A DNA stretch of 64,000 nt from Symbiodinium sp. CCMP2592 (Eukaryota; Sar; Dinophyceae; Suessiales; Symbiodiniaceae), in the NCBI GenBank assembly GCA_905221615.1, contig CAJNDT010005334.1, positions 1,179,001-1,243,000 of the forward strand, in the 5' to 3' direction. Position 1 is the first letter of the stretch. Each line of letters begins with the position of its first letter. A model generated the notes under the pieces. It was given only the letters and a program-made list of their open reading frames with translations. It was not told where the DNA came from and searched no databases. The translations under genes were made by a program, and so were the position numbers. Of this stretch, positions 6,501 to 60,544 are shown one piece after another.

Positions 6501-7581
6501 TGAACCCATGAACCCTAACTTCGAAACTCCCTGAGTCCCAAAACCGCCAACCCTAAACACAAGCCGCTCAAGTGCCGATTTCATGCAGGGCCTCGTAGTT
6601 TTGGGGGTCGGGGTCCGAGGTAGAAGGATCCCAACGTTCGCTGTGCAGGCTTTAATTTGAGGGTTTAAGGGTGTCTGTGGAGGTTTAAAGTGATCGCTGG
6701 GTTCAGGGAGTAGGCTTTGCTCACTTTTGTGATTCAGAAGGAGCTGCAAGTCTTAAGCTCCAGGATATTGCTTGATCTTAAACCCGAGAGCACCAAGAAT
6801 CTCTCCGAAGGCGGTAGCCCCCAAAAGCTTATAAAATCTCAAGGCAGTAAACCCTAAACCCTAACAGTTTGATGCACTTGTCATACTATAGCTGTGCTTT
6901 GGTGAGTGTACATAGGACTCCCTGGGTATGTGTTGGGTGTTCTTATGGGATCTTGGACTCTGCCAGCCCGAAGCCCAAGTAGTCTAGGTCGAACCACCTC
7001 CGAAAGGTCTCACCTCGGCATGTCCGAGAGTGCCGACATCCGAAGCCTTTACTATGCTCTTCATGGGCCCAGGCCTCCCCCTGACCATCCCTAACCAGTG
7101 TGGCCATGAATGCCAAATCCTCCGCAACATGCACAGCCCTTCGTCGTCGTGAACCTTGAGACATCCTGCACCCCTAGGTATCTACCCTTAATAAAGCTAC
7201 TATATACCCATTATATAGCCCATTATAGGGTAGTCCCTCTTGACCCTGCATTCCCCAAAATCCCAGAATCCTGCGCCCCTGAGCCCCATGCCTGTCAGTG
7301 AAGCCTCAAAGCGATCCACCAAACAACGGGATTCCCCAAAACAAGGAGCCCTAAATCCGGTCCCTGACCTCATCCTCCTGACAGGGAGGCTGGGGAGGTC
7401 TGATCTCCAAAGCCTGGAATAGGTCGGGATAGGGTTTTTCAGGGGGTTTAGGGGTTTGTTTGGGCTTTCCCCTTTCGCATGGCTAGGATCGATGCCCACA
7501 AGCCAGGTTGCCTTGGTGTAGACAATAGGATCTTTCGAAAGTTTTGATCGAGCTTACAAGGGATCTTACAGGGATTTCTGT

Positions 7582-7670
7582 AGGAGCCTGAATAACTAGA
7601 AGAAGTTTTGGGGACCTCGATATCAATGAACCCCCAAGCAATTCTACTAGTTACTCAAGCACCTACGTAC
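7582..7670. mobile_element. Short inverted-repeat element (MITE-like)
   Basis: Imperfect inverted termini GGAGCCTGAATAACTAGAA and TTCTACTAGTTACTCAAGCACC-like sequence (16 of 19 pairing) around a 50-bp core. Related weakly to family J. Confidence 0.45.
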
Positions 7671-7990
7671 AGAGCTTCCGGTTCCCGGTTAGAGTCTTGG
7701 GCCTCAGGGCTCTGGGCCTCTGATTAAGGCTTGCAGTTTAGAGGGCATGGCTCAGTGTTTCTGTGAGGAAGGATCAGGTGTACTGGTTGGGGTTTATCAA
7801 AACTACTATGGCGGCCTTGGTCATTCGCACAGGGTTTCGCGGCATGTTATACGTTTCTGGAATACTGCTGTGGGGCTGCAGACCTGCAAAGGCCGGAGGC
7901 TGCTTCCTGAACCGGTATGAGGTTTCAAGACTTCGGATTCTTCACTTGCGGCTTTAGGGTGCCTGATCTCCCATGAAGGGGTTGTAACTC

Positions 7991-8092
7991 TAAGGGTCCA
8001 AAGCACCCCATAATTAGGTACTCGGTTGTGATGCTAGGAATTATGTAGGATAATACAGTTACGTATATGGTTAGTAGGCATTTGGACCCTTA
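7991..8092. mobile_element. MITE, family F (TAAGGGTCCAAA termini)
   Basis: A perfect 12-bp inverted repeat TAAGGGTCCAAA / TTTGGACCCTTA encloses 102 bp. The outermost TA may be the target duplication. It shares TAAGGGTCC with family E (19691, 52953). Confidence 0.75.
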
Positions 8093-8845
8093 ACGTAATT
8101 CAGTAAGACATAAACACCCCGAGTTGGCAAAGTACGCGACAGCATGCCTGCTGGAATGATTTCACAGGCGGCCGAACTCTAGACAATATGTCCTGATTTC
8201 ACGCCCCACAACCTCAAGTCCAACCCTGAAGCCCTCAGACGTTCACACAAGAACGGCCGGATAACGAGCATGGCCTCTCCGATATACTACACGAGCCAAG
8301 CTTCGGGGCAGCGGCAGGATGACACAACCCTCAAACACCCGAAACACTAAATCTCAACCCCCTCAGGCCGCAAAGACCCCGGCAACAAATCACTACGCAA
8401 ATGAACCCTACAGTATATATAAAATATAAATACTTCCCTTACCCCCGCATTGAAAAAACCTTGACCCTCTTGATCGTTTTGCAGCCAAGAGGGACTGACA
8501 GTCGCCAAGAACGGCTTCCTCGACTTAGGGGCGGCAGCTCCTGCAGCTGGTGCCGGCTGGGGATTTCGGGGTTTGGGCTAATGAAGGGGCCTTAATGATC
8601 AGAATCGGGTAGAGATTTCGGTGTTTGGGGCCTAGGTTTTATCACGGGGGGAACAAGGTTTAGAGGGGTGGAGGCTGTAGCAGGAGATTCTGGAATCTGA
8701 GAGGAGATTGTCAGCGATCTGACAGAAACCAGGCAGGTGTCGCGGTTTTCGAGCTTGTCTTCATTGGCCTTTTGTGTTATGGGCTTGATAGTTCCATGCA
8801 GCGGGCATTTATGGTTTTAAAGCATTTGTGGTTGAATTTGGACAG

Positions 8846-16573: not shown

Positions 16574-17662
16574 TCAACTCTGGCCCTGCAAAGCGCGATA
16601 CACCCTGCTCGTCAGTCTGAGCAAGTCGGTATCTTGTGCTTTGGCCTGGGAAATCACATCTAACGCGGCTCGTCGATGCTCCGGGCCTGCTTCATCGACG
16701 AGCTTTCGCACCTGTGCTTTGCTTTTGACCCTCGATGTCCGCGAGAGGCTTCCAAGCAGTGATGCCACATGAACGTCCACGAAGAATCGGTCCAGGGTGT
16801 CCATGCCCAACTGCGCAGCCCTCGAGGCTACTTCGTTGACTTGCTGCCATGGCCTTCCAGCATATGCAGCCATCACACATCTGAAGTGAACCTCGTTGGC
16901 AGATATGTTTCCTTGTGCCATTAGCTCCAAAAAGTACTCCGCGACCTTAGGCTTTGCTGCCAGCTTGCAGCCATTCAAGGCAGCACCCCAGGTCCCGGCA
17001 TCAATATCCATGCCCTCTTTCACGATCTCATCAAGAAACATAGAAACTCGTGTCAGATCAGCGGCAGTTGCTGCATCAATTACCATTTCGTTCAAGAACA
17101 AATATTTCTGCCTCGGTGTCCATGTCGACCAGGTACCGTTCTTGGCATCCTCCCATAAAGAGTATGCCTTTGCATGATTCTTCAGCTTTGTGAAGAGCCG
17201 GACAGCCGATGTGTACGTAATAGCAGTTGGCGGTGTGCCGGCATCGCACATGTCAGCAAACACATTGGCACCGTACCTAAACTGTCCGCACCTGAAGGCT
17301 GCATGCATTATTCCATTACACATCGGAGCCTTGTAGACCTTGCAAGATTCCCAGGCTTTCTTGGCAGCAGGCCACTTCAACTTCTTTGACGCACTCGAGA
17401 TGATGTTCAAGCTTGAGGTCTCCTGAGGTGTGAGTTTCACTGCGTCCGCTCCGACCTTTGATATAGGGCTCCTAAGGAGGAGACCCCTATCTTCGTTGAG
17501 CTTCTCCATCTGCTTGCTTACCCTGTGGCGCGGCACGCTGAACACAGATGATCTGACCGACCCTAACTGCCATGATGTTAGCAGCAGGATCAGTATCAAG
17601 CAGGAGACTACACCAGGCCGTGTCGGTTTTCTTGGACGATTAGTCTCCGAAAAGGCAGCCAT
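16574..17662 (-). CDS. Pentatricopeptide-repeat-like protein, probably organelle-targeted
   Basis: A single uninterrupted frame of 362 codons from an ATG at 17662 to TGA at 16574. An in-frame TTG two codons upstream is not needed. Residues near 18-36 form a hydrophobic segment (VVSCLILILLLTSW) followed by 'SVRSSVFSVPRHR', which resembles a dinoflagellate plastid bipartite leader: a signal sequence, then an aromatic residue close to the cleavage point, then a basic, Ser-rich region. From about residue 95 helical pairs of roughly 35 residues follow, including 'MCNGIMHAAFRCGQFRYGA' and 'TAITYTSAVRLFTKLKNHAK', in the helix-turn-helix style of PPR proteins that bind organellar RNA. Repeats are degenerate. 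No intron is apparent and the gene is isolated. Targeting and RNA role are inferences. It is the clearest intact gene of the left half. Confidence 0.8.
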   Translation of the reverse strand: MAAFSETNRPRKPTRPGVVSCLILILLLTSWQLGSVRSSVFSVPRHRVSKQMEKLNEDRGLLLRSPISKVGADAVKLTPQETSSLNIISSASKKLKWPAAKKAWESCKVYKAPMCNGIMHAAFRCGQFRYGANVFADMCDAGTPPTAITYTSAVRLFTKLKNHAKAYSLWEDAKNGTWSTWTPRQKYLFLNEMVIDAATAADLTRVSMFLDEIVKEGMDIDAGTWGAALNGCKLAAKPKVAEYFLELMAQGNISANEVHFRCVMAAYAGRPWQQVNEVASRAAQLGMDTLDRFFVDVHVASLLGSLSRTSRVKSKAQVRKLVDEAGPEHRRAALDVISQAKAQDTDLLRLTSRVYRALQGQS

Positions 17663-20225
17663 GTCCAAGAAAAGGACCGGAGAGACCCAAAGCTGCAGCT
17701 ACGACGGCAGAGCAGCGAATGGCACAGAGCTGGCCTACGCTTTGGGACTACAGTACAGTCGGGATCGGGTAAACGGCTGAGGGAACAAGTCATCCAACTG
17801 ACACACACCTCGACTGATGCCGGAATGAACTCAGGTTGTGGAGGCCACAGGACGCAATGATGTCTCACCTTTTGTCTTCGTTTTCTGACTTCCAACTTCG
17901 GCAGCAGCCCATCTCAGGGAGCCCAATACCTTGAAGTTATCTCAACTCACTAAGCACTCAAGCCATTCCATTCCATACACGAAGCATCCAAACCCAAAAC
18001 TCAAAATCCTAGGCCTTCAGTTCCTTAACACCAAACTCGAAATCCAAACCTCAACCATTCCTTGAACACTCCTAGCCCTGAGGTCTCACACCCCTCACAG
18101 CCCCGAAATGAAGAGCCTCATCTTCGAAGTCTTCATCGAACTCAACCTTCAGCCAGAACGGGTGTCCGGGGTTTGGGAGTTAAAGATGTTTTTTAAACAT
18201 CCCTTCTTTCCGTCTCGCATGATTAGGGCTTAGGGGATTAGGCCGGATTCTAAAAGTGCGGATCAATTAGCGGGGGGTCCCGGTTAAAGGATTCCAGGTT
18301 CCAGGCTTCAAGAGTGCTTTCCGACGCACGAAGTAGCAATCAAATCTAATGACTCTACTGGTTCTGGCTCAGTCCAAGCGGAGCTTCCGACTCCAGCGTA
18401 CACACTGTGATTTGAGCTCCGAGAATTAGCTGGTGTGACGGTCGAAGTCGGGTCTCAGGGGTCGGGGAAGTCCAGCCCCAGAGCTCGAGAAGCGGCTGGA
18501 TCTTGGCACCTCAACCTTATACGTGCTACATTCATTGCAAGAGCCGTGATGGGGCTCATTTCCTGAAGTTTCACGACATACTTTCCCGAAGAGGTCGACC
18601 TCCGTTGAAGTTCCTCTTCCCAGCACATCCAAGCACACAATTTCGACACCATCCCAAAACCAATCCCTTCATTCGGAACCATCCCGCCTGCCTCCTCTAA
18701 TTCAATAACCTAAAACCATGTTCGCAATCCTAAACTTCGTGAGGCCTGCATACTTGTAGAGCTCTCCGAACTGTCCATATGATCACTCAACCCCAGACCG
18801 TGTAATTACACCTCGACATCATCGTCGTGCTCTGACAGGTCGTCGGCAACGACGGGGTCCACCCCTGCGACCTGCTCTGCCTTCCACGGATTTGGGGTTG
18901 CGGCTCATCATGGCAAGGCTCACTGTCATGATGGGGATGGTGATGCTGACTTGAATGGTGATGGCGAAGAGGGTGAACATGAGGACCATGCTGGTGATGA
19001 TGAACAAACAAATGCTCGCGATGGCGGCTGCTGTGATAAAGGACCATGCGCATGTTTCATGCGGATGATGGTGAATAAACAACCATCGTGCAAGTGACGA
19101 TGTGCTGAGGGACACTGACATTCATAACGATGATCGTGGAAGCAATGATTCTAAAAGCGATGGCGATGGCGTGCGACTTTGTTGGTGGTGATGAGAATTC
19201 AACATGACAGTGCCGTTGAAAGTGGCACTAGCGAGTTTCCGCGGTGTCCTCCTGCAACCGCGCACACCGTGCTTTTAATCTATTGCTCCTCGTTGCCACA
19301 GGCTTCCAGAAATTATCATAGTCGCATAAAAAGCTCTCCAAGCCATCATGGTTGCCACTTCACAACAATCACCATGTTTCCAATTTTTCCAGCATCGGTC
19401 AACATCATCAGCAGCAGGAGTGGCACCTACAACAGCAATATCGTCACGATTTTCTTGGTGTAGCCATTTCTCTCCATCCAGAGCCTGTATGACCATGGCG
19501 CATGCTAGTCGGTGTTCTTGTGCACATAAAAATTGCGCAAAAGCTTCAGTCACTCCTACCACTGTTCATAAGCACAGCAGGCCACGCCTCTGATTCGGTG
19601 GCTCCCGGCTGGCTCGGCTCCATCGCTGAGGGCTGCGGCTTTGACAAGAACTCCTCAAAGTCCGAGTCGTAGTTGTAGGCCTTCTTGCCCTAAGGGTCCA
19701 TGTACTCATATAGTGTATACATTGGCCTTAAAGTACTCCCTATGTAGCTACATTGGGCTCAAAGTATATACTATTTGGGTACATGGACCCTTAGGGTTGG
19801 TTTAGGAGTTTAGGAGGCTTGAGGTTTAGGGCTGAAGCCTTTGGATCATGTTTAGGATAGTTAAGGCTTGGGGGCTTAGATGCTTTTAGTGGAGGTCGGG
19901 ATTGAACTACAGGATTTGCATCTTTTTTTGTGGGTTTTGTTGATATTTTGTTTTCCGGTTTCGGTCTGAAGCTTGAATGCATTAGCGCAAACGCGAAGTA
20001 CAAGTTCGTTATGTTTGGCGCAGTGTATAAACTCTTTGAAACAGTAGCTGCCACAACGCATTGCCGTCTCGGACACTGTTGTAGTAGGGGGTTAAGACTG
20101 TTGACCGCTCTTTAGGGCCTCTCTCGCAAATGCCCACGATGCCCGATGAGTTGGAGTCTGGAGCACATCATCCGTTCCCAAGAGCAGAAGTACCGGTACC
20201 CGAGCATGGAGACGACCCCTAAACA
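17663..20225. other. Intergenic, degenerate GATG repeat, one MITE
   Basis: A degenerate GATGGTGATG-type trinucleotide/hexanucleotide repeat occupies about 18890-19190, with CATCAT/AACAAT words continuing to 19450. The histidine-rich frames opposite it are artefacts. A family E MITE lies at 19691-19793. Nothing else supported. Confidence 0.55.
19691..19793. mobile_element. MITE, family E copy 1 (TAAGGGTCCATGTAC termini)
   Basis: A perfect 15-bp inverted repeat TAAGGGTCCATGTAC / GTACATGGACCCTTA around a core with TTGGCCTTAAAGTACTCCC and TTGGGCTCAAAGTATATAC. A second copy in the opposite orientation lies at 52953-53052. Confidence 0.85.
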
Positions 20226-54185: not shown

Positions 54186-55119
54186 CCCTTTTTGGTTTAA
54201 AGTTGTAAGAATTTCTGGCCTCTAGACCTTGGATTTCATCAAATATTTATTTTGTCATTTATTTGTCATTTTTTTGTCATTTGGTGGTTTTTCCGTTTGT
54301 CATTTTCTAGTCGTTTCTGTCATTCGCCCTTCCTCCCTCTGCGCCCCACGCCCACGGAAATTACAAAAAAATGACGCCAAAATGACAAAAAACGACGCCA
54401 ATGCCAAACAAATGCTTCCAAAATGACAAAAAAATGACTCCAAAATGACAAAACAATGACTCCAAAATGACAACAAAATGACAATGCCTCGGGAAATGTG
54501 CAAATTTCGGTTTGGTGCCCTGCCCCACCCTTCCTCCCTCCCTCCGCGCCCCACCAAAATTACAAAAAACGACGCCAATGCCAACCAAATGCTTCCGAAA
54601 TGACCAAGAAATGGCTCCAAAATGACAAAAAATTGACAATGCCTCGGGAAATGTGCAAATTTCGGTTTGGTGCCCTGCCCCACCCTTCCTCCCTCCCTCC
54701 GCGCCCCACCCAAATTACAAAAAACGACGCCAATGCCAAACAAATGCTTCCAAAATGACAAAAAAAAATGACTCCAAAATGACAAAAAATGACTCCAAAA
54801 TGACAAAAAAATGACACCAAAATGACAACAAAATGACAATGCCTCGGGAAATGTGCAAATTCCGGTTTGGCGGCCTGCCCTACCCTCCCTCCCTCCGCGC
54901 CCCAACAAATTGACACAAAAACGACACCAAAATGACAAAAAAATGACACCAAAATGACAGTGTTAACGTTAACCAAATCCAGAATGACAAAAAAATGACA
55001 ATCCCAATGACACAAAAACGACAAGAGCAAATGACAAAAAAAATACAAATAAATGACAAAATTAATTCTGGAACCCACCTCAAGCTTTGCTGCAGAAATT
55101 CTTACAAGTTTAAAGGGGG
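54186..55119. mobile_element. Inverted-repeat element built on an AAATGACA minisatellite
   Basis: Terminal inverted repeats TTTAAAGTTGTAAGAATTTCTG (left, to 54218) and its complement ending near 55119, with about 22 of 24 positions pairing. Inside, the left arm (54240-54310) carries TTTGTCATTT words, while the rest (54365-55070) carries AAATGACAAA words, i.e. the arms are inverted copies. Three to four longer units of about 155-200 bp repeat a GCCTCGGGAAATGTGCAAAT motif followed by a CT-rich block (CCTTCCTCCCTCCCTCCGCG). No protein is encoded. Long Phe-rich frames on the minus strand are artefacts of the repeat. Confidence 0.8.
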
Positions 55120-56724
55120 TTATAAGGGAACCTAAACCCTAAAACAGGGAATAAGGGCCTACTCTGGGTCCTAGGTGGGGTGCAGGGCTGCTGTTCTTCT
55201 TGATTGTCTGAAGCTTCACAAGCCTGCGACTCTGCACGCTTGTACTCTTTGGCCATGCCCAGTAGAAACATCCTCAACCGTTTCCCTAAAATCCCAGAGT
55301 TACGATCGCCCTAAAGTTCTGAAACATGCCATTGCACCGCTCAGCAACTCGATGTTCTGAAACTGAAGTCCCTAAACCGTAAACCCGATAACCCCTAAAC
55401 CCTAAACCCGATAACCCCTACACCCTAAACCCTATAACCCCTAAACCCCCTCAGAGACAGGGAGCTCGTCATAAGCGGATTCGGAAGCTCCGGTCGTCCT
55501 GATTCACGAATCATGCAGCTTAACGTTCATTTTTTTGTTAAGGGCCTCTTTCTATCCCCAGCTTAACTGTTCCCGGGCTAGGGTTCGGTGGTTTCTAATT
55601 GGGTCTAGGGCTTTGGGGTTGGGGTTTACGGTATCCGTGCTTTTCCTGCTTGCATGCCGTGTGAAACGTGAGCTGAAAGCAATCCCTGATGGTTGTAACC
55701 CTGCCTGCTCCATTCCCGATCTAGATCCCGAGACCCCAAAGCCATAAATCCTGGAATCTTTGTAAGCGTTAAGGCGTTAACCCTACAGCTGTGTCTCTGA
55801 ATTCCAAACTGGAGACAGCCGGGCGGCGGTGAAGCACCACTTCGGACCGTTGTGGGAGCGGTGGCCAGGTCGTCGTCGCTCCCATCTGTAACAAGGGACA
55901 TGGTTTTGAATTCAGGGTTTAGGGCTTTGGCTTTTGGACTTAGGCTCAAGGCTTAGGACTCTGGTTTGAAGTTCAGGGTCCTCTCTGTTTCCGGCCGTGG
56001 ATAAACAGATGATCTAGACAAGCTCAGGATCAAATGGGGCTTCCAACTTCCAAGATAGAATCAAGGGGTCATGGTTATAAGACTCGCTGGGTTTAGAGGA
56101 ACTCCTAAGCCCTAAGCCCCACACCCCTAAACCATCCTATACTCCATAACCCCAAACCCACGCACCCAAAACCACAAAACCCCGAGGGTTGACAGGTTGG
56201 CCGCGAGTTGGCTGTCCGGGCTTCCGGCCGTCGTTCGCTGGGTCTTCTGCAACGCCGGCAGCCTTGGGCACAGGAAGCAAGGGAAGATACCACTCCAAAA
56301 GGGCCCTGGGGGCTGTTGAAGTGGATACTTCCCCTTCCCCAAAGCATAATCGTTATGTTACTCCTAATATAGAATCCAGGGTTAAGGCTTTTCTGCGCAA
56401 CTACTTCTAGGAAAATCTACACGCCGTACATCCCAACTCCTTATCCGGAATTCCTTGAAAGAAGTCTCCTCACCGATCTGTGTAATTTTTTCTGCATTGG
56501 GGGACAGTTTGAGAAGGACGACTCCGAAAGAAGTGACTCTGTCAAAGATGCTAACAAGGCCAGAAGACAAAAACGGAATGTTATGGGGCCTCGTAAGGAT
56601 CTGAAAGACTTTCCGGGGCTTGGCTTTAACCGGACTTGTTAACCGTTCTCGAAATCGAAAAACAATGGCGGCCAAAGTCTAAGCCCTTTTTGGCTCGATT
56701 TCCATCATCAACAAGCTAGCGAAT
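55120..56724. other. Intergenic, telomere-like array, no gene recognised
   Basis: Contains the array at 55371-55450 and CCCTAAA words at 56100-56160. No supported exon. Confidence 0.6.
55371..55450 (-). repeat. CCCTAAA array with a longer repeat unit
   Basis: Telomere words here form a 24-bp higher unit built from AACCCGATAACCCCTAAACC, seen about three times. Confidence 0.85.
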
Positions 56725-57013
56725 ACCATTTCCATTTTCTAACCATGCCCCACCCCCTAGCACCCAAAACCATAACAACCTATACCTCAACCCTAACACC
56801 ACTCAAGACCCATAGGTAGAACCCTAGGAAATACGCACCTGAAGACCCAAAATCACAACAACCTATACCCCAATGCCCACAAAATAGAACCACTAAAAGA
56901 CCCATACGCCACCATATAGAAAAACCCTAACCTCAAACCCATACACCAACACCTCCATAGAAAAAGCCGATAGTATCAACCCGAAATCCCTAACCCTAGA
57001 AAATGGAAATGGT
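56725..57013. repeat. Left terminal repeat region of the virus-like element
   Basis: Begins with the 20-bp TIR and ends with an inverted copy of its inner part (CTAGAAAATGGAAATGGT, 56996-57013). Between them a unit of about 82 bp starting ACCCAAAA(C/T)CA(T/C)AACAAC is duplicated (56764, 56846). The strand is C- and A-rich with hardly any G. Confidence 0.75.
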
Positions 57014-57119
57014 ATTCTCCAATAAAATAACAATAATAGGAATAAGGTTTAGGTATAAGGTAGTCGCCAATGGAATCATATTATGGTTGTTTATTGCTCT
57101 CGTTGTTTCTCTTCCTTCC

Positions 57120-57407
57120 TTAATCTTTGGTATTTTTTCGTCGCTTTTTGTGTTCTTCAATTTGCTCTCGTATGCTTTCTATTTCATCAATAATCATTTG
57201 GAGCCTAGTGGCGTAGTGAACATTTGTTATTATTTCGGATATTTTCGTCTCTGTAAATCTACTTCTATCGGCTTCATTATGGGCAGTGTTAGATGCTTCT
57301 GACCGGAACTTGTCTGACCTCTTCGCTCATTCAAGTAACAAATCATTTATATCATCAATCTTGTCAATCATAAAGTCAAGAATTTCAACCTGTAAATTAT
57401 CGCTCAT
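57120..57407 (-). pseudogene. Small AT-rich virus-like ORF 1, one internal stop
   Basis: ATG at 57407, stop at 57120, 95 codons, with a single TGA at 57327-57329. The product is acidic then basic, ends in a predicted coiled coil ('IIDEIESIREQIEEHKKRR') and has 'ILDFMIDKIDDINDLLLE' before the TGA. The TGA follows GAA and precedes GCG, so it may be a CGA-to-TGA mutation. An alternative is two small overlapping genes. A sequence TTCTAAAGAGAAACACTTAA upstream is repeated upstream of ORF 2. No family recognised. Confidence 0.5.
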
Positions 57408-57623
57408 TCTTGTCTTAATATATACGGTTGTTATTTATTTAAGTGTTTCTCTTTAGAAATTTTTCTTAACATTAACCAATTATAATATCATAGTGAAATA
57501 GTATAACTATTGTTTAAGGCATAAATGTCCACGACCCCACGCCATCCCAGCTTGATTGAATTTGTTGTTTCATTTTATAGTACATTTCACGTTGTTCAAA
57601 TTTGGCTTTGGCATGTGTATTAG

Positions 57624-57938
57624 TCAAAATGTTAAGACTTCAGCAAAAGCAAATGCGTTACATTCCATCGCTTGAACACCACCTAATCTATCAATTTCAT
57701 CACCATTCTTTTTTATAGGTTCAACATCATCAATACATTCATAAATTTCTTGTAAGTATTTATGGGTCTCATGTCTATATTCACCGTTCATCAATAAATA
57801 GTGAAATTTCAGTTCCATATCACCTTTGTTCTTCCACTTTTGAGCTTTATGTAACATAGAGTCTTTCATAATCTCATAAGGTGGATACGAGTTTTTCTTA
57901 ACGAATGCCTTAGTTTTCTTCACGTCTTGTTCGTCCAC
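57624..57938 (-). CDS. Small AT-rich virus-like ORF 2
   Basis: About 104 codons open from 57938. The first in-frame ATG is at 57869 (81 codons), but the coding character begins upstream ('DEQDVKKTKAFVKKNSYPP'), so a non-ATG start, a lost ATG or a splice acceptor (TTAACAG|G just upstream) is possible. Contains 'KFHYLLMNGEYRHETHKYL' and 'EIYECIDDVEPIKKNGDE'. AT-rich codon use. No family recognised. On the same strand as ORFs 1, 3 and 4. Confidence 0.5.
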   Translation of the reverse strand: MDEQDVKKTKAFVKKNSYPPYEIMKDSMLHKAQKWKNKGDMELKFHYLLMNGEYRHETHKYLQEIYECIDDVEPIKKNGDEIDRLGGVQAMECNAFAFAEVLTF

Positions 57939-57947
57939 TTCCCTGTT

Positions 57948-57975
<28 letters not shown>
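57948..57975. repeat. (AT)n tract between virus-like ORFs
   Basis: Part of an intergenic segment shared with the one before ORF 1 (see finding on the repeated spacer). Confidence 0.85.
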
Positions 57976-57979
<4 letters not shown>

Positions 57980-58018
57980 TGTTATTTCTATAAGTGCTTT
58001 TCTTCAGAAATTCTTTTC

Positions 58019-58270
58019 TTATGACTTATTAACGGGAATTTCAATAATTATTCTGTCCTTATGCTTACCGAATAGCACCAAATAATCTTCTGGAAGCTCA
58101 TCATTCATCAGCAACTGATGGACGTGATTGAATACTGTATCAATATCAGGTTCGGGTTTCTCGGGAACCCTTTTCTGCTTTTCGTGATCTGCCTTAACCT
58201 CTGCTTGTAATTTGTCGTCTAGTTTGCCTTCTTTCCTTAAACTACCTAACTTCCTTAAATAATCGTTCAT
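58019..58270 (-). CDS. Small AT-rich virus-like ORF 3
   Basis: ATG at 58270 (a TTG in front is not needed), 83 codons to TAA/TGA at 58019. The N-terminal half is a charged helix ('LRKLGSLRKEGKLDDKLQ'), then a Pro-Glu linker ('RVPEKPEPD'), then a small beta-rich-looking end ('DYLVLFGKHKDRIIIEIP'). No family recognised. Hydrophilic, no membrane segment. Confidence 0.55.
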   Translation of the reverse strand: MNDYLRKLGSLRKEGKLDDKLQAEVKADHEKQKRVPEKPEPDIDTVFNHVHQLLMNDELPEDYLVLFGKHKDRIIIEIPVNKS

Positions 58271-58345
58271 CAATACATTTAGTTCCGAGTTCGGATGTAA
58301 GACACAATGGAAATGGGCATCCCAGTTTTCGTGTTTTATCTTATG

Positions 58346-58528
58346 TCAGCATTCTTCGCTTATTTGGCACCCCTTTGCTCTCTCTTCTCTTCGTGCCTGA
58401 TTGTATTCCTTCTGGTTTTTCTTGTAGCATTTTCTTTTCGCTTCACGGCACCTGTTACAAGTCTTAAACCTGTCAAACTCTTCAACATCTTTAATCGCAC
58501 AACAAGATTTACACACTCGCTTTTCCAT
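58346..58528 (-). CDS. Small zinc-ribbon-like protein (virus-like ORF 4)
   Basis: ATG at 58528, 60 codons, TGA at 58346. 'RVCKSCCAIKDVEEFDRF' followed by 'CNRCREAKRKCYKKNQKEY' gives a CxxC-x14-CxxC zinc-ribbon pattern with a basic tail. This layout (C-x2-C ... K-x3-F ... C-x2-C-R-x2-R-x-Y-x3-N) is frequent in phage and large DNA virus proteins, often near nucleases. Function unknown. The pattern is visible; viral affinity is from memory of the pattern. Confidence 0.6.
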   Translation of the reverse strand: MEKRVCKSCCAIKDVEEFDRFKTCNRCREAKRKCYKKNQKEYNQARREERAKGCQISEEC

Positions 58529-58602
58529 CTTACTATATTCAAAAGTCTAGTCTTTAGGCACGGTTAGACTGCTAAAACAAACATTCTAATCATTGAATTT
58601 AA

Positions 58603-58826
58603 TCAGTCCAAAATAAAAATAAACTTAACCGCTTTTACCCTGAACTAGATGTAGGAGATGAAGTTAAGACATTTAGGAAGAGAAAACCAAATGAAAAAGA
58701 GAGGGTGAGCAACTGGTCACGGAAGGTCTATACAATAGAAAATATTGAAAACAAATTGGGTCAACATGATTACAGAGTTGAAGGTAATCGTAGCAGTATT
58801 TGAGATTTGAAGTTCTGAAGGTTTGA
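58603..58826 (+). pseudogene. C-terminal domain of a retroviral-type (rve) integrase
   Basis: Open from 58603 on the + strand and reading 'RFYPELDVGDEVKTFRKRK', then 'SNWSRKVYTIENI' and 'DYRVEGNRS'. A one-base frame change at about 58795-58797 leads into 'YLRFEVLKV' and TGA at 58826. This is the SH3-like C-terminal DNA-binding domain of rve integrases: xxxGDxVR...K...F/K...NWS...YTI..I......Y.V.......LR.ELLKV. It matches Polinton, virophage and some Ty3-type integrases. The catalytic core and zinc-binding N-terminus are absent: upstream DNA encodes minus-strand ORF 4 instead. So the gene is truncated and frameshifted. Its stop lies 28 bp from the stop of the RCC1 gene on the other strand. Confidence 0.7.
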
Positions 58827-58854
58827 GGGCAGGCACTCTCTATTTTATTCACGA

Positions 58855-60100
58855 TCAGCGGTTGGGCACATGACTCTTCCCGTCAAACTTGTCTCCAAAG
58901 CAGACAAGCTGACTATCTGTGCCCTCTGCGCAGCACAAGTATGGCAATGACCCACTAAACTGGTGCCAAAAGAGCTGGTGCGTCACACTGACCATTCCCA
59001 TTGTATCCAAAGCAAACGAGCTGACCATCTGTCCGCATGGCACAAGTATGAGAATGGCCTGCTGAGACTGCCAAAACTGGTCCCAGATCTGCTGGGACGT
59101 CACACCGCCCAGCACTGTTGTATCCAAAGCAGACGAGCTGACCATCTGTCCGCACGGCGCATGTATGAAAACTGCCTGCTGAGACTGCCAAAACTGGTCC
59201 CAGATCTGCGGGGTCGTCACACTGCCCATCATCGTTGTATCCAAAGCAGACGAGCTGACCATCTGTCCGCATGGCACAAGTATGAGAATTGCCTGCTGAG
59301 ACTGCCAAAACTGGTCCCAGATCTGGGACGTCACACTGCCCAGCACCGTTGTATCCAAAGCAGACGAGCTGACCATCTGTCCGCACGGCGCATGTATGTA
59401 AATTGCCTGCTGAGACTGCCAGAACTGGTCCCAAATCTGCTGGGATTTCACACTGCCCATCACCGTTGTCTCCAAAGCAGACGAGCTGACCATCTGTCCG
59501 CATGGCACAAGTATGAGAAGTGCCTGCTGAGACTGCCAGAACTGGTCCCAAATCTGCTGGGACGTCACACTGCCCAGCACTGTTGTATCCAAAGCAGACG
59601 AGCTGACCATCTGTCCGCACGGCGCATGTATGAAAAATGCCTGCTGAGACTGCCAGAACTGGTCCCAAATCTGCTGGGACGTCACACTGCCCATCACCGT
59701 TGTCTCCACAGCAAACGAGCTGATCATCTGACCGCACTACGCAAGTTTGAGCATTTGCAGCTAAGCGTGCCAAAACTGGTCCCAAAACTGTCACTGTTGT
59801 ATTCAAAGCAGACGAGCTGACCATCTGCCCCATTGCGCATGTATGAAGAGCTGAGACTGCCGAAACTGGTCCGAAATCTGCCTCGCAAACCGCGCTGCAC
59901 ATGTCTGCCGAAGACTTTCCTCACCACACAACTGCTGGAAACTCGAACATTTCCGGAACGTGGTGAGAATGCGCAAGTCCGAGTCCGTCTGCTCTTTTTG
60001 CTTGGCCCCACGAAACGTGACTGACCCTGTGTGGAAACGCACCAGGGAGCCAGGATGGACCGCAAGAAAAGACTGGAAAAAGGCGCCTTGTGTGCCCAAA
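58855..60100 (-). pseudogene. RCC1-type repeat protein, frameshifted
   Basis: About nine tandem copies of a 38-residue unit of the form HTCAxRTDGQLVCFGYN and GQCDVPADLGPVLAVSAG. The main frame (58955-59902) holds seven good copies. At 58955 the frame is lost and the last copy ('DSQLVCFGDKFDGK') continues in another frame to TGA at 58855. N-terminal copies before 59760 are also split between frames ('GADGQLVCFEYNSDS'). RCC1-like units fold as beta-propeller or BLIP-II-like blades. I recall such proteins, often labelled HERC2-like, as abundant in dinoflagellates. Upstream minus-strand sequence ('QTDSDLRILTTFRKCSSF', about 59960) may be the N-terminus. At least two frame changes make it probably non-functional unless assembly errors explain them. 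Confidence 0.75.
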
Positions 60101-60290
60101 AGAACCAGGCAAACGCCAGGCCAACTTTCATGGCCGTTGAGAGATGGATGAGGAATGCTCCAGTGAGGGTGCGGTTGAAGCTGAAAACGGAATTAGACGA
60201 GTAGCTCGTGCTATGCTGCAAGTATCGTTCTCGGCGGTTCGACCTGAGCTTTAAACCTTACTCCTACTCTGGATATCTTGTTTGAGATCA

Positions 60291-60385
60291 CGATTTCCAT
60301 TTTCTAGGTTAGGGATATTCCGGTTGGGAATATGGGTGTTTCTATGGGGGTGTGGGGGTGTGCACGGTTAGAAAATGGAAATGGT
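60291..60385. repeat. Right terminal repeat region of the virus-like element
   Basis: Runs from CGATTTCCATTTTCTAGG (inner inverted copy) to GGTTAGAAAATGGAAATGGT (outer TIR). Its reverse complement matches both ends of the left terminal region, including the block near TCCCTAACCTAGAAAATGG, but lacks the 82-bp internal duplication. Confidence 0.8.
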
Positions 60386-60544
60386 CATTGCTAACTCAAC
60401 AACCATTGCTCCATACTTAAATTACTAGGCTATTGCTTAGGCAACTGGAGCCCCACGGCAAGGTTTAGTTTTCCCCGACATTGACTGTGGATGCCCCTTG
60501 AAGCCTAGCGGAAGTCCTATGAATCCCAGGAAGATCCTAGGGAT

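Follow-up and report, generated by a model that had tools for sequence, protein, structure and literature searches.

Dinoflagellate genomes hold many integrated Polinton-like viruses (PLVs) with "Dino group" major capsid proteins (MCPs) (Bellas et al. 2023, PMC10120064), 5- to 6-bp target duplications have been described for PLVs (PMC12220804), and nematode Mavericks carry host cargo (Widen and colleagues, according to a meeting report, PMC10680173). Here, we describe an element of this kind in a 64,000-nucleotide stretch of the genome of the dinoflagellate Symbiodinium sp. CCMP2592 (contig CAJNDT010005334.1, positions 1,179,001 to 1,243,000; referred to below as the window), a strain that one paper names S. 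tridacnidorum (PMC8045281). The segment at positions 56714 to 60396 of the window is very probably a dead, internally deleted copy of a family of endogenous PLVs whose parents are ~20 kb long and carry exchangeable cargo.

Like the Dino-group PLVs, the Symbiodinium family combines a dinoflagellate host, many integrated elements, capsid genes, and terminal inverted repeats (TIRs), whereas the main text on the Dino group contains no mention of "RCC1," and no description of a cargo slot was found there (PMC10120064). With the PLV of Oxyrrhis marina it shares an MCP, an A32 ATPase, a protein-primed DNA polymerase B (pPolB) joined to a superfamily 1 (SF1) helicase, and TIRs, which measure 230 to 860 bp in that virus. 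In contrast, the O. marina PLV is reported to have a tyrosine recombinase and GIY-YIG and no target duplication, whereas the Symbiodinium family has an rve integrase with a duplication of 5 bp; the main text of the O. marina paper contains neither "cargo" nor "RCC1" (PMC12721341). The cryptophyte PLVs are likewise TIR-bounded, multicopy elements, although neither "cargo" nor "host-derived" occurs in the main text that describes them (PMC12220804). Nematode Mavericks are also Polinton-type elements with host-type cargo genes, but their host and cargo are different (PMC10680173), and the Symbiodinium elements have their cargo at a single fixed position beyond the integrase, with different genes in different copies of one genome. 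No report of an exchangeable cargo slot was found in the open-licence PMC literature, and in the papers checked, mentions of RCC1 alongside virophages or PLVs referred to culture numbers (e.g., RCC1105). What is new is that the relatives have an exchangeable cargo slot; dinoflagellate PLVs and Maverick cargo were already known.

RESULTS

The window element has full-length relatives in the same genome

A preliminary description based on the letters of the window alone had interpreted a 3.66-kb segment (56725..60385) as a Polinton-type element of a dinoflagellate genome, bounded by a perfect 20-bp TIR (ACCATTTCCATTTTCTAACC at 56725-56744, inverted copy at 60366-60385). It had also suggested looking for full-length relatives and for capsid and packaging genes between other TIR pairs. 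Both are present in this dinoflagellate genome (1.098 Gb in 5,383 contigs), which contains 72 exact matches to the 20-mer and none to a reversed control. Among these are 14 convergent pairs no more than 22.4 kb apart. Ten of the pairs are at 19 to 22.4 kb (C39, C357, C913, C1113, C2891, C4984, C5116, C5129, C5192, and C5271), and the remaining four are shorter (C62, C447, C1313, and the window); two wider pairs, 50 kb (C4368) and 61 kb (C1913) apart, were left out of this set. C5116, C5129, and C5192 were read along their whole length in pieces, and the other seven ~20-kb elements at their two ends.

C5116, C5129, and C5192 encode a double-jelly-roll capsid protein, an A32 ATPase, a pPolB with SF1 helicase, and an rve integrase. 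Support differed among these assignments. The packaging ATPase matched Pox_A32 above the curated cut-off (6.5e-13), and the 308-aa integrase of a full relative matched Pfam rve at 1.1e-5 and 26.1 bits, below the curated cut-off of 32.6, with chance-level matches only to the PDB by sequence. The polymerase open reading frame (ORF) had neither a Pfam polymerase match nor a PDB match by sequence, but a model of its homologue P0241 (predicted local distance difference test [pLDDT] score, 77) had phi29 polymerase as its best PDB matches (1.7e-8; whole-query template-modeling [TM] score, 0.23). The capsid alignment found no PDB match by sequence, and its weak model scored lower against the Sputnik and mavirus capsids than against that of PBCV-1. 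Neither the capsid protein nor the integrase had a confirmed relative in IMG/VR. One listed capsid-protein homologue is named Skav204780, which we take to be from Symbiodinium/Fugacium kawagutii. ORFs of 206 and 98 aa are also conserved among the elements; the labels minor capsid and protease are guesses for these, and the 206-aa ORF had no usable family match.

Ends and target duplication of the element

When the flanks of the 14 TIR pairs were compared, 11 further conserved bases were seen outside the 20-mer. The perfect 20-bp repeat of the preliminary description is real, but the true ends of the element (AGTTAGCAGAT-type termini), which had been missed, lie 11 bp farther out, at 56714-60396 (3,683 bp), and are flanked by a 5-bp CAACA duplication. 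The 5-bp duplication is exact in 11 of the 14 paired elements, matches at 4 of 5 bases in C5271 and C1313, and is absent in C357. Shifting the flanks outward by 1 to 7 bases left a duplication in none of the 14 elements at each of the seven shifts. We relied on these shifts because re-dealt right flanks were a poor control, with up to 7 of 14 matching via fixed points.

The TIRs align over 309 to 495 bp in nine of the ten 19- to 22.4-kb copies and over 237 bp in C2891, which has a duplicated end: its terminal-repeat motif occurs twice, 248 bp apart, at one end (L021, 295-559). The left repeat of the window is 84 to 87% identical to the terminal repeats of several relatives and 69 to 78% identical to others. 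With up to 2 mismatches allowed, the window contains four copies of a 17-bp core (three exact and one with 1 mismatch) against 0.04 expected, namely, at the two element ends and as two inner inverted copies (56997-57013 and 60290-60306).

Such inverted 17-mers bound each arm, at a spacing of 272 bp in the left arm and 79 bp in the right, as would fit two unrelated miniature inverted-repeat transposable elements (MITEs) of one family that by chance lie on either side of a host RCC1 gene with an AT-rich island. The arms are homologous well past the 17-mer, however (alignment score of 103 versus a maximum of 36.5 in 200 shuffles), the 5-bp duplication lies outside the pair, and the same arms bound ~20-kb viral genomes, 7 of 10 with RCC1 inside. 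We therefore consider a chance pair of MITEs highly improbable.

Gene content and decay of the window copy

The features of the window element, which we read as a PLV relic, are collected in Table 1. GC content in 100-bp steps is 0.23 to 0.45 from about 57000 to 58900, which bears out the abrupt AT-rich block of the preliminary description. Four compact ORFs had also been reported, one of them a zinc ribbon. The zinc-ribbon ORF was upheld, but it and the neighboring ORF, separated by a stop codon in the window, correspond to a single 199-aa ORF in C447 (two overlapping ORFs in C5116), and the leftmost ORF is broken. Searches of the window's small ORFs against Pfam and PHROGs returned nothing usable, including for the open piece 57123-57326, and Rfam and tRNA scans of the window gave no matches. 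Elsewhere in the window, an ORF at 16574-17668 (minus strand) encodes pentatricopeptide repeats (PPR_2, 8.1e-8), and nested tandem repeats of 11, 22, 155, and 200 bp lie at 54358-55061.

Table 1. Coordinates of the window element and its parts
Feature	Position	Strand	Remarks
Left target-site duplication CAACA	56709..56713	none	exact match to 60397-60401
Left TIR, ~340 bp	56714..57051	+	outer 17-mer 56725-56741; inner inverted 17-mer 56997-57013
Broken small left-end ORF	57123..57434	-	open pieces 57123-57326 and 57330-57434
AT-rich upstream motif	57418..57464	-	common to 57969-58015 and upstream of a few other viral ORFs, a sharing that suggests a possible viral promoter
104-aa ORF	57624..57938	-	63% identity to relative in one full element (C5192, L027)
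Remnant of 105-aa left-end ORF	58019..58273	-	61-62% to L009 105-aa ORF
Zinc-ribbon ORF (CxxC/CxxC)	58346..58528	-	69% identity to 111-aa left-end gene; cut by stop codon
Internal deletion join	58599..58600	none	~16.6 kb absent relative to 20-kb C5116
rve integrase C-terminal end	58600..58800	+	further 18-19 bp gap and stop; C-terminal fragment 58603-58800
RCC1-repeat cargo gene	58955..60140	-	antisense to integrase; RCC1_2 8.4e-64
Right TIR, ~145 bp, ~200 bp shorter	60252..60396	-	17-mers at 60290-60306 and 60369-60385
Right target-site duplication CAACA	60397..60401	none	exact match to 56709-56713

The integrase C-terminal domain of the preliminary description proved to be a fragment with 83% identity over 58 aa to the 308-aa integrase of the full-length relatives. 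Since rve integrases are common to long terminal repeat (LTR) elements too, the fragment and the small ORFs might have come from an LTR retrotransposon or other transposon, the outcome that the preliminary description had named as fatal to its interpretation. We regard this origin as extremely improbable because the closely matching integrase belongs to capsid-encoding elements, the neighbors on both sides are shared with the PLV family, and the terminal repeats are inverted, not direct, although no search aimed at a reverse transcriptase was made.

The right 1.4 kb of the element (about 58820-60140; 53% GC) is an RCC1-propeller gene inside the terminal repeats, which was absent from the preliminary description. 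Its open frame covers 315 aa (58955-59902), and a leader-like piece (59796-60134) is not in one frame with it. Among capsid, ATPase, polymerase, and integrase core genes, none gave a match in the window, where only the integrase C terminus matches, in agreement with the lack of capsid and packaging genes already noted. Of the viral proteins known from its relatives, the window copy thus encodes none in complete form, and it does not qualify as an autonomous PLV. The family as a whole, with TIRs of hundreds of base pairs, an rve integrase, a 5-bp duplication, an A32 ATPase, and a pPolB, has the features of a Polinton-like group.

A private deletion join marks the window copy as a probable relic

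The left block of the window matches the left ends of relatives up to 58599, and the right block matches the integrase end, such that left-end genes are joined directly to the integrase tail. Twenty-seven base pairs at the join were considered as filler, and this was rejected: 21 of 27 are identical to L010, which makes them diverged integrase sequence and places the join at 58599|58600. When the genome was searched with a probe across the join, 40 of the matches (117 candidates) were scored: 12 covered the left side only, 27 the right side only, and one, the window itself, spanned the join. The best match to both sides was C4368:277211-327529 (94% left, 91% right), whose repeat pair is 50 kb apart and perhaps holds a nested insertion; on the right side, C347 (90%) and C5192 (91%) are as close.

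The preliminary description had suggested a non-autonomous derivative mobilized by a larger relative, i.e., a MITE-like or satellite form reduced to its ends plus cargo and dependent on full-length elements for movement in trans. Both window ends and the target duplication are still recognizable, and other short elements exist, including C1313 (3.29 kb), C37 (2.13 kb), and C62 and C447 (~9 kb, with exact duplications). Between its terminal repeats, C37 (2,128 bp) has RCC1 and what remains of an integrase, and its GTTTT duplication is exact. The window join is private, however, with the other 39 scored matches stopping at or near it. Moreover, the two window repeats are identical at 95 of 117 positions (81%) over their alignable part and differ by a large deletion, which indicates an old copy; they are the most diverged of the 14 pairs, in contrast to those of C39 (347/347 identical). 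A mobile derivative is therefore very unlikely, and the suggestion was not supported. Since no other scored match spans its join, the window copy looks private and decayed: it is a relic, not a demonstrated mobile derivative.

The C62 element (L031, C62:202530-212220; 9 kb) retains a polymerase-helicase, an integrase with one stop, and an HNH cargo, with no capsid or ATPase match; it is a virus reduced to a transposon-like form.

The relatives carry different cargoes in one position

All 14 pairs have a stretch with a gene directly inside one of the terminal repeats. In the 13 pairs that keep integrase sequence, this stretch lies beyond the integrase; no integrase sequence was found in C447. 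In the 12 elements measured (all but the window and C447), cargo GC is 48 to 56% versus 34 to 38% for the integrase. Nine of the 14 carry RCC1 (the window, C1313, C357, C913, C4984, C5116, C5129, C5192, and C5271). Among the other five, the cargo is a protein of 482 aa in C39, 592 aa in C1113, and 332 aa in C2891; C62 encodes an HNH_2 protein (2.8e-5), and C447 encodes an AAA+ ATPase protein (8.2e-7, which falls short of the curated cut-off). Some non-RCC1 cargo ORFs begin with TTG or GTG, and their starts are uncertain. As for RCC1, the non-RCC1 cargo is antisense to the integrase in 4/4 cases with an integrase neighbor. C39 and C1113 have an extra 201-aa, AT-rich ORF between integrase and cargo. 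Judged by eye, the upstream regions of six cargo genes are without the AT-rich pattern of viral genes, and PADLOC found 0 families among six cargo proteins.

The 610-aa AAA+ ATPase of C447 (L032, C447:554306-564165, at 6901-8733) ends in a C-terminal region that looks, by eye, like a PD-(D/E)XK nuclease; the protein may be akin to Crinkler-type proteins. Two further cargo proteins (L013, 892-2340, and L020, 3412-5190) contain RLRGGG and RGRGGAKRKR stretches that by eye recall ubiquitin-like tails, and neither protein has a Pfam match.

Cargo and integrase have discordant histories

On the integrase side, C39 and C1113 share 1,951 bp at 98.5% identity; from there to the repeat, their cargo is unrelated. 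The reverse holds for C357 and C5129, which are 97 to 100% identical in the repeat and RCC1 versus 88 to 96% in the integrase, with synonymous divergence (dS) of 0.002 for RCC1 and 0.427 for the integrase. Shared integrase ends with unrelated cargo, and near-identical RCC1 genes with diverged integrases, imply that the cargo slot is exchangeable. When the integrases of 11 elements were placed in a tree, its well-supported branches required a minimum of two switches between RCC1 and a different cargo.

Origin of the RCC1 cargo

Of 7,996 scored candidates, 2,316 were homologues of the RCC1 cargo, with Symbiodinium UVR8 and HERC-like proteins as the best named matches; judged from these sequence matches, the RCC1 family is large and of host type. 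Among solved structures, the bacterial inhibitor BLIP-II was the best match by sequence (2e-27). In the same genome, with 103 of 1,502 candidates scored, RCC1 had at least 162 matches, and 103 matches taken from these (mostly one per place) merged to 100 loci. For proximity, integrases were taken from 62 of 128 matches in one search and 28 from the join probe. Twenty-four of the 100 RCC1 loci have such an integrase within 2.5 kb, antisense in 24/24, and at least 27 have an integrase or exact repeat nearby. The figure of 27 element-linked loci is a lower bound because two of ten unflagged loci that were fetched, C758 and C1180, turned out to be elements that have a related leader; in the parts read, both have RCC1, integrase sequence, and repeat-like motifs. 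In C580, C4201, and C5273, many RCC1 loci lie on one strand of each contig and are apparently tandem arrays of host genes.

An open RCC1 frame of 357 to 404 aa is present in eight of the nine paired elements with RCC1 (all but the window), and the frame is broken in C37, C247, and C304 (C247 and C304 were read in part).

DISCUSSION

The evidence above leads us to propose that the ~20-kb parents, with their pPolB-helicase, double-jelly-roll capsid protein, and rve integrase, would integrate and leave a 5-bp duplication, the activity of these proteins being deduced from gene content and duplications. The window copy, which carried the RCC1 cargo and sits between the CAACA duplications, would have decayed through one internal deletion of ~16.6 kb, loss of part of the right repeat, and breakage of several reading frames; the deletion may have come before or after integration. 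Two observations weigh against this account: the overall quality of the capsid model is low (pLDDT, 58), and the duplication is inexact or absent in 3 of the 14 pairs.

For the relatives, we propose, as a possibility that we hold only tentatively, a dedicated and exchangeable slot beside the integrase in which host-type, GC-rich genes are picked up, swapped, and re-seeded, such that part of the Symbiodinium RCC1 expansion is virus-borne. Exchange would occur most simply by recombination between the conserved flanks of the cargo, i.e., the integrase side and the terminal repeat. Our caution reflects mosaicism beyond the slot: C357 and C5129 are 74 to 100% identical along the left end, and C39 and C1113 are much less alike there than at the integrase, so exchange is not confined to the cargo. 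The evolution of RCC1 itself also counts against the proposal. The ratio of nonsynonymous to synonymous divergence (dN/dS) of RCC1 is 0.45 to 0.83 in 27 of 28 pairs (2.35 in the other, at a dS of 0.002), compared with a median of 0.062 for the integrase (10 pairs from five elements; C913, open in another search, C4984, C5271, and C2891 were dropped when no long enough frame was detected). Constraint on the RCC1 cargo is thus weak relative to the integrase, and the cargo may be little used. In addition, element-borne RCC1 genes do not form a clade in the RCC1 tree, which was made with C758 and C1180 still labeled as host and in which 10 of 16 inner branches are open; this poorly resolved tree is compatible with different numbers and directions of RCC1 capture.

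The window copy itself is an ordinary relic. The fixed slot with alternative cargoes and the discordant histories of cargo and integrase make virus-borne gene movement directly testable in coral-reef algae, and counts of RCC1, HERC, or UVR8-like genes in Symbiodinium annotation may include viral passengers.

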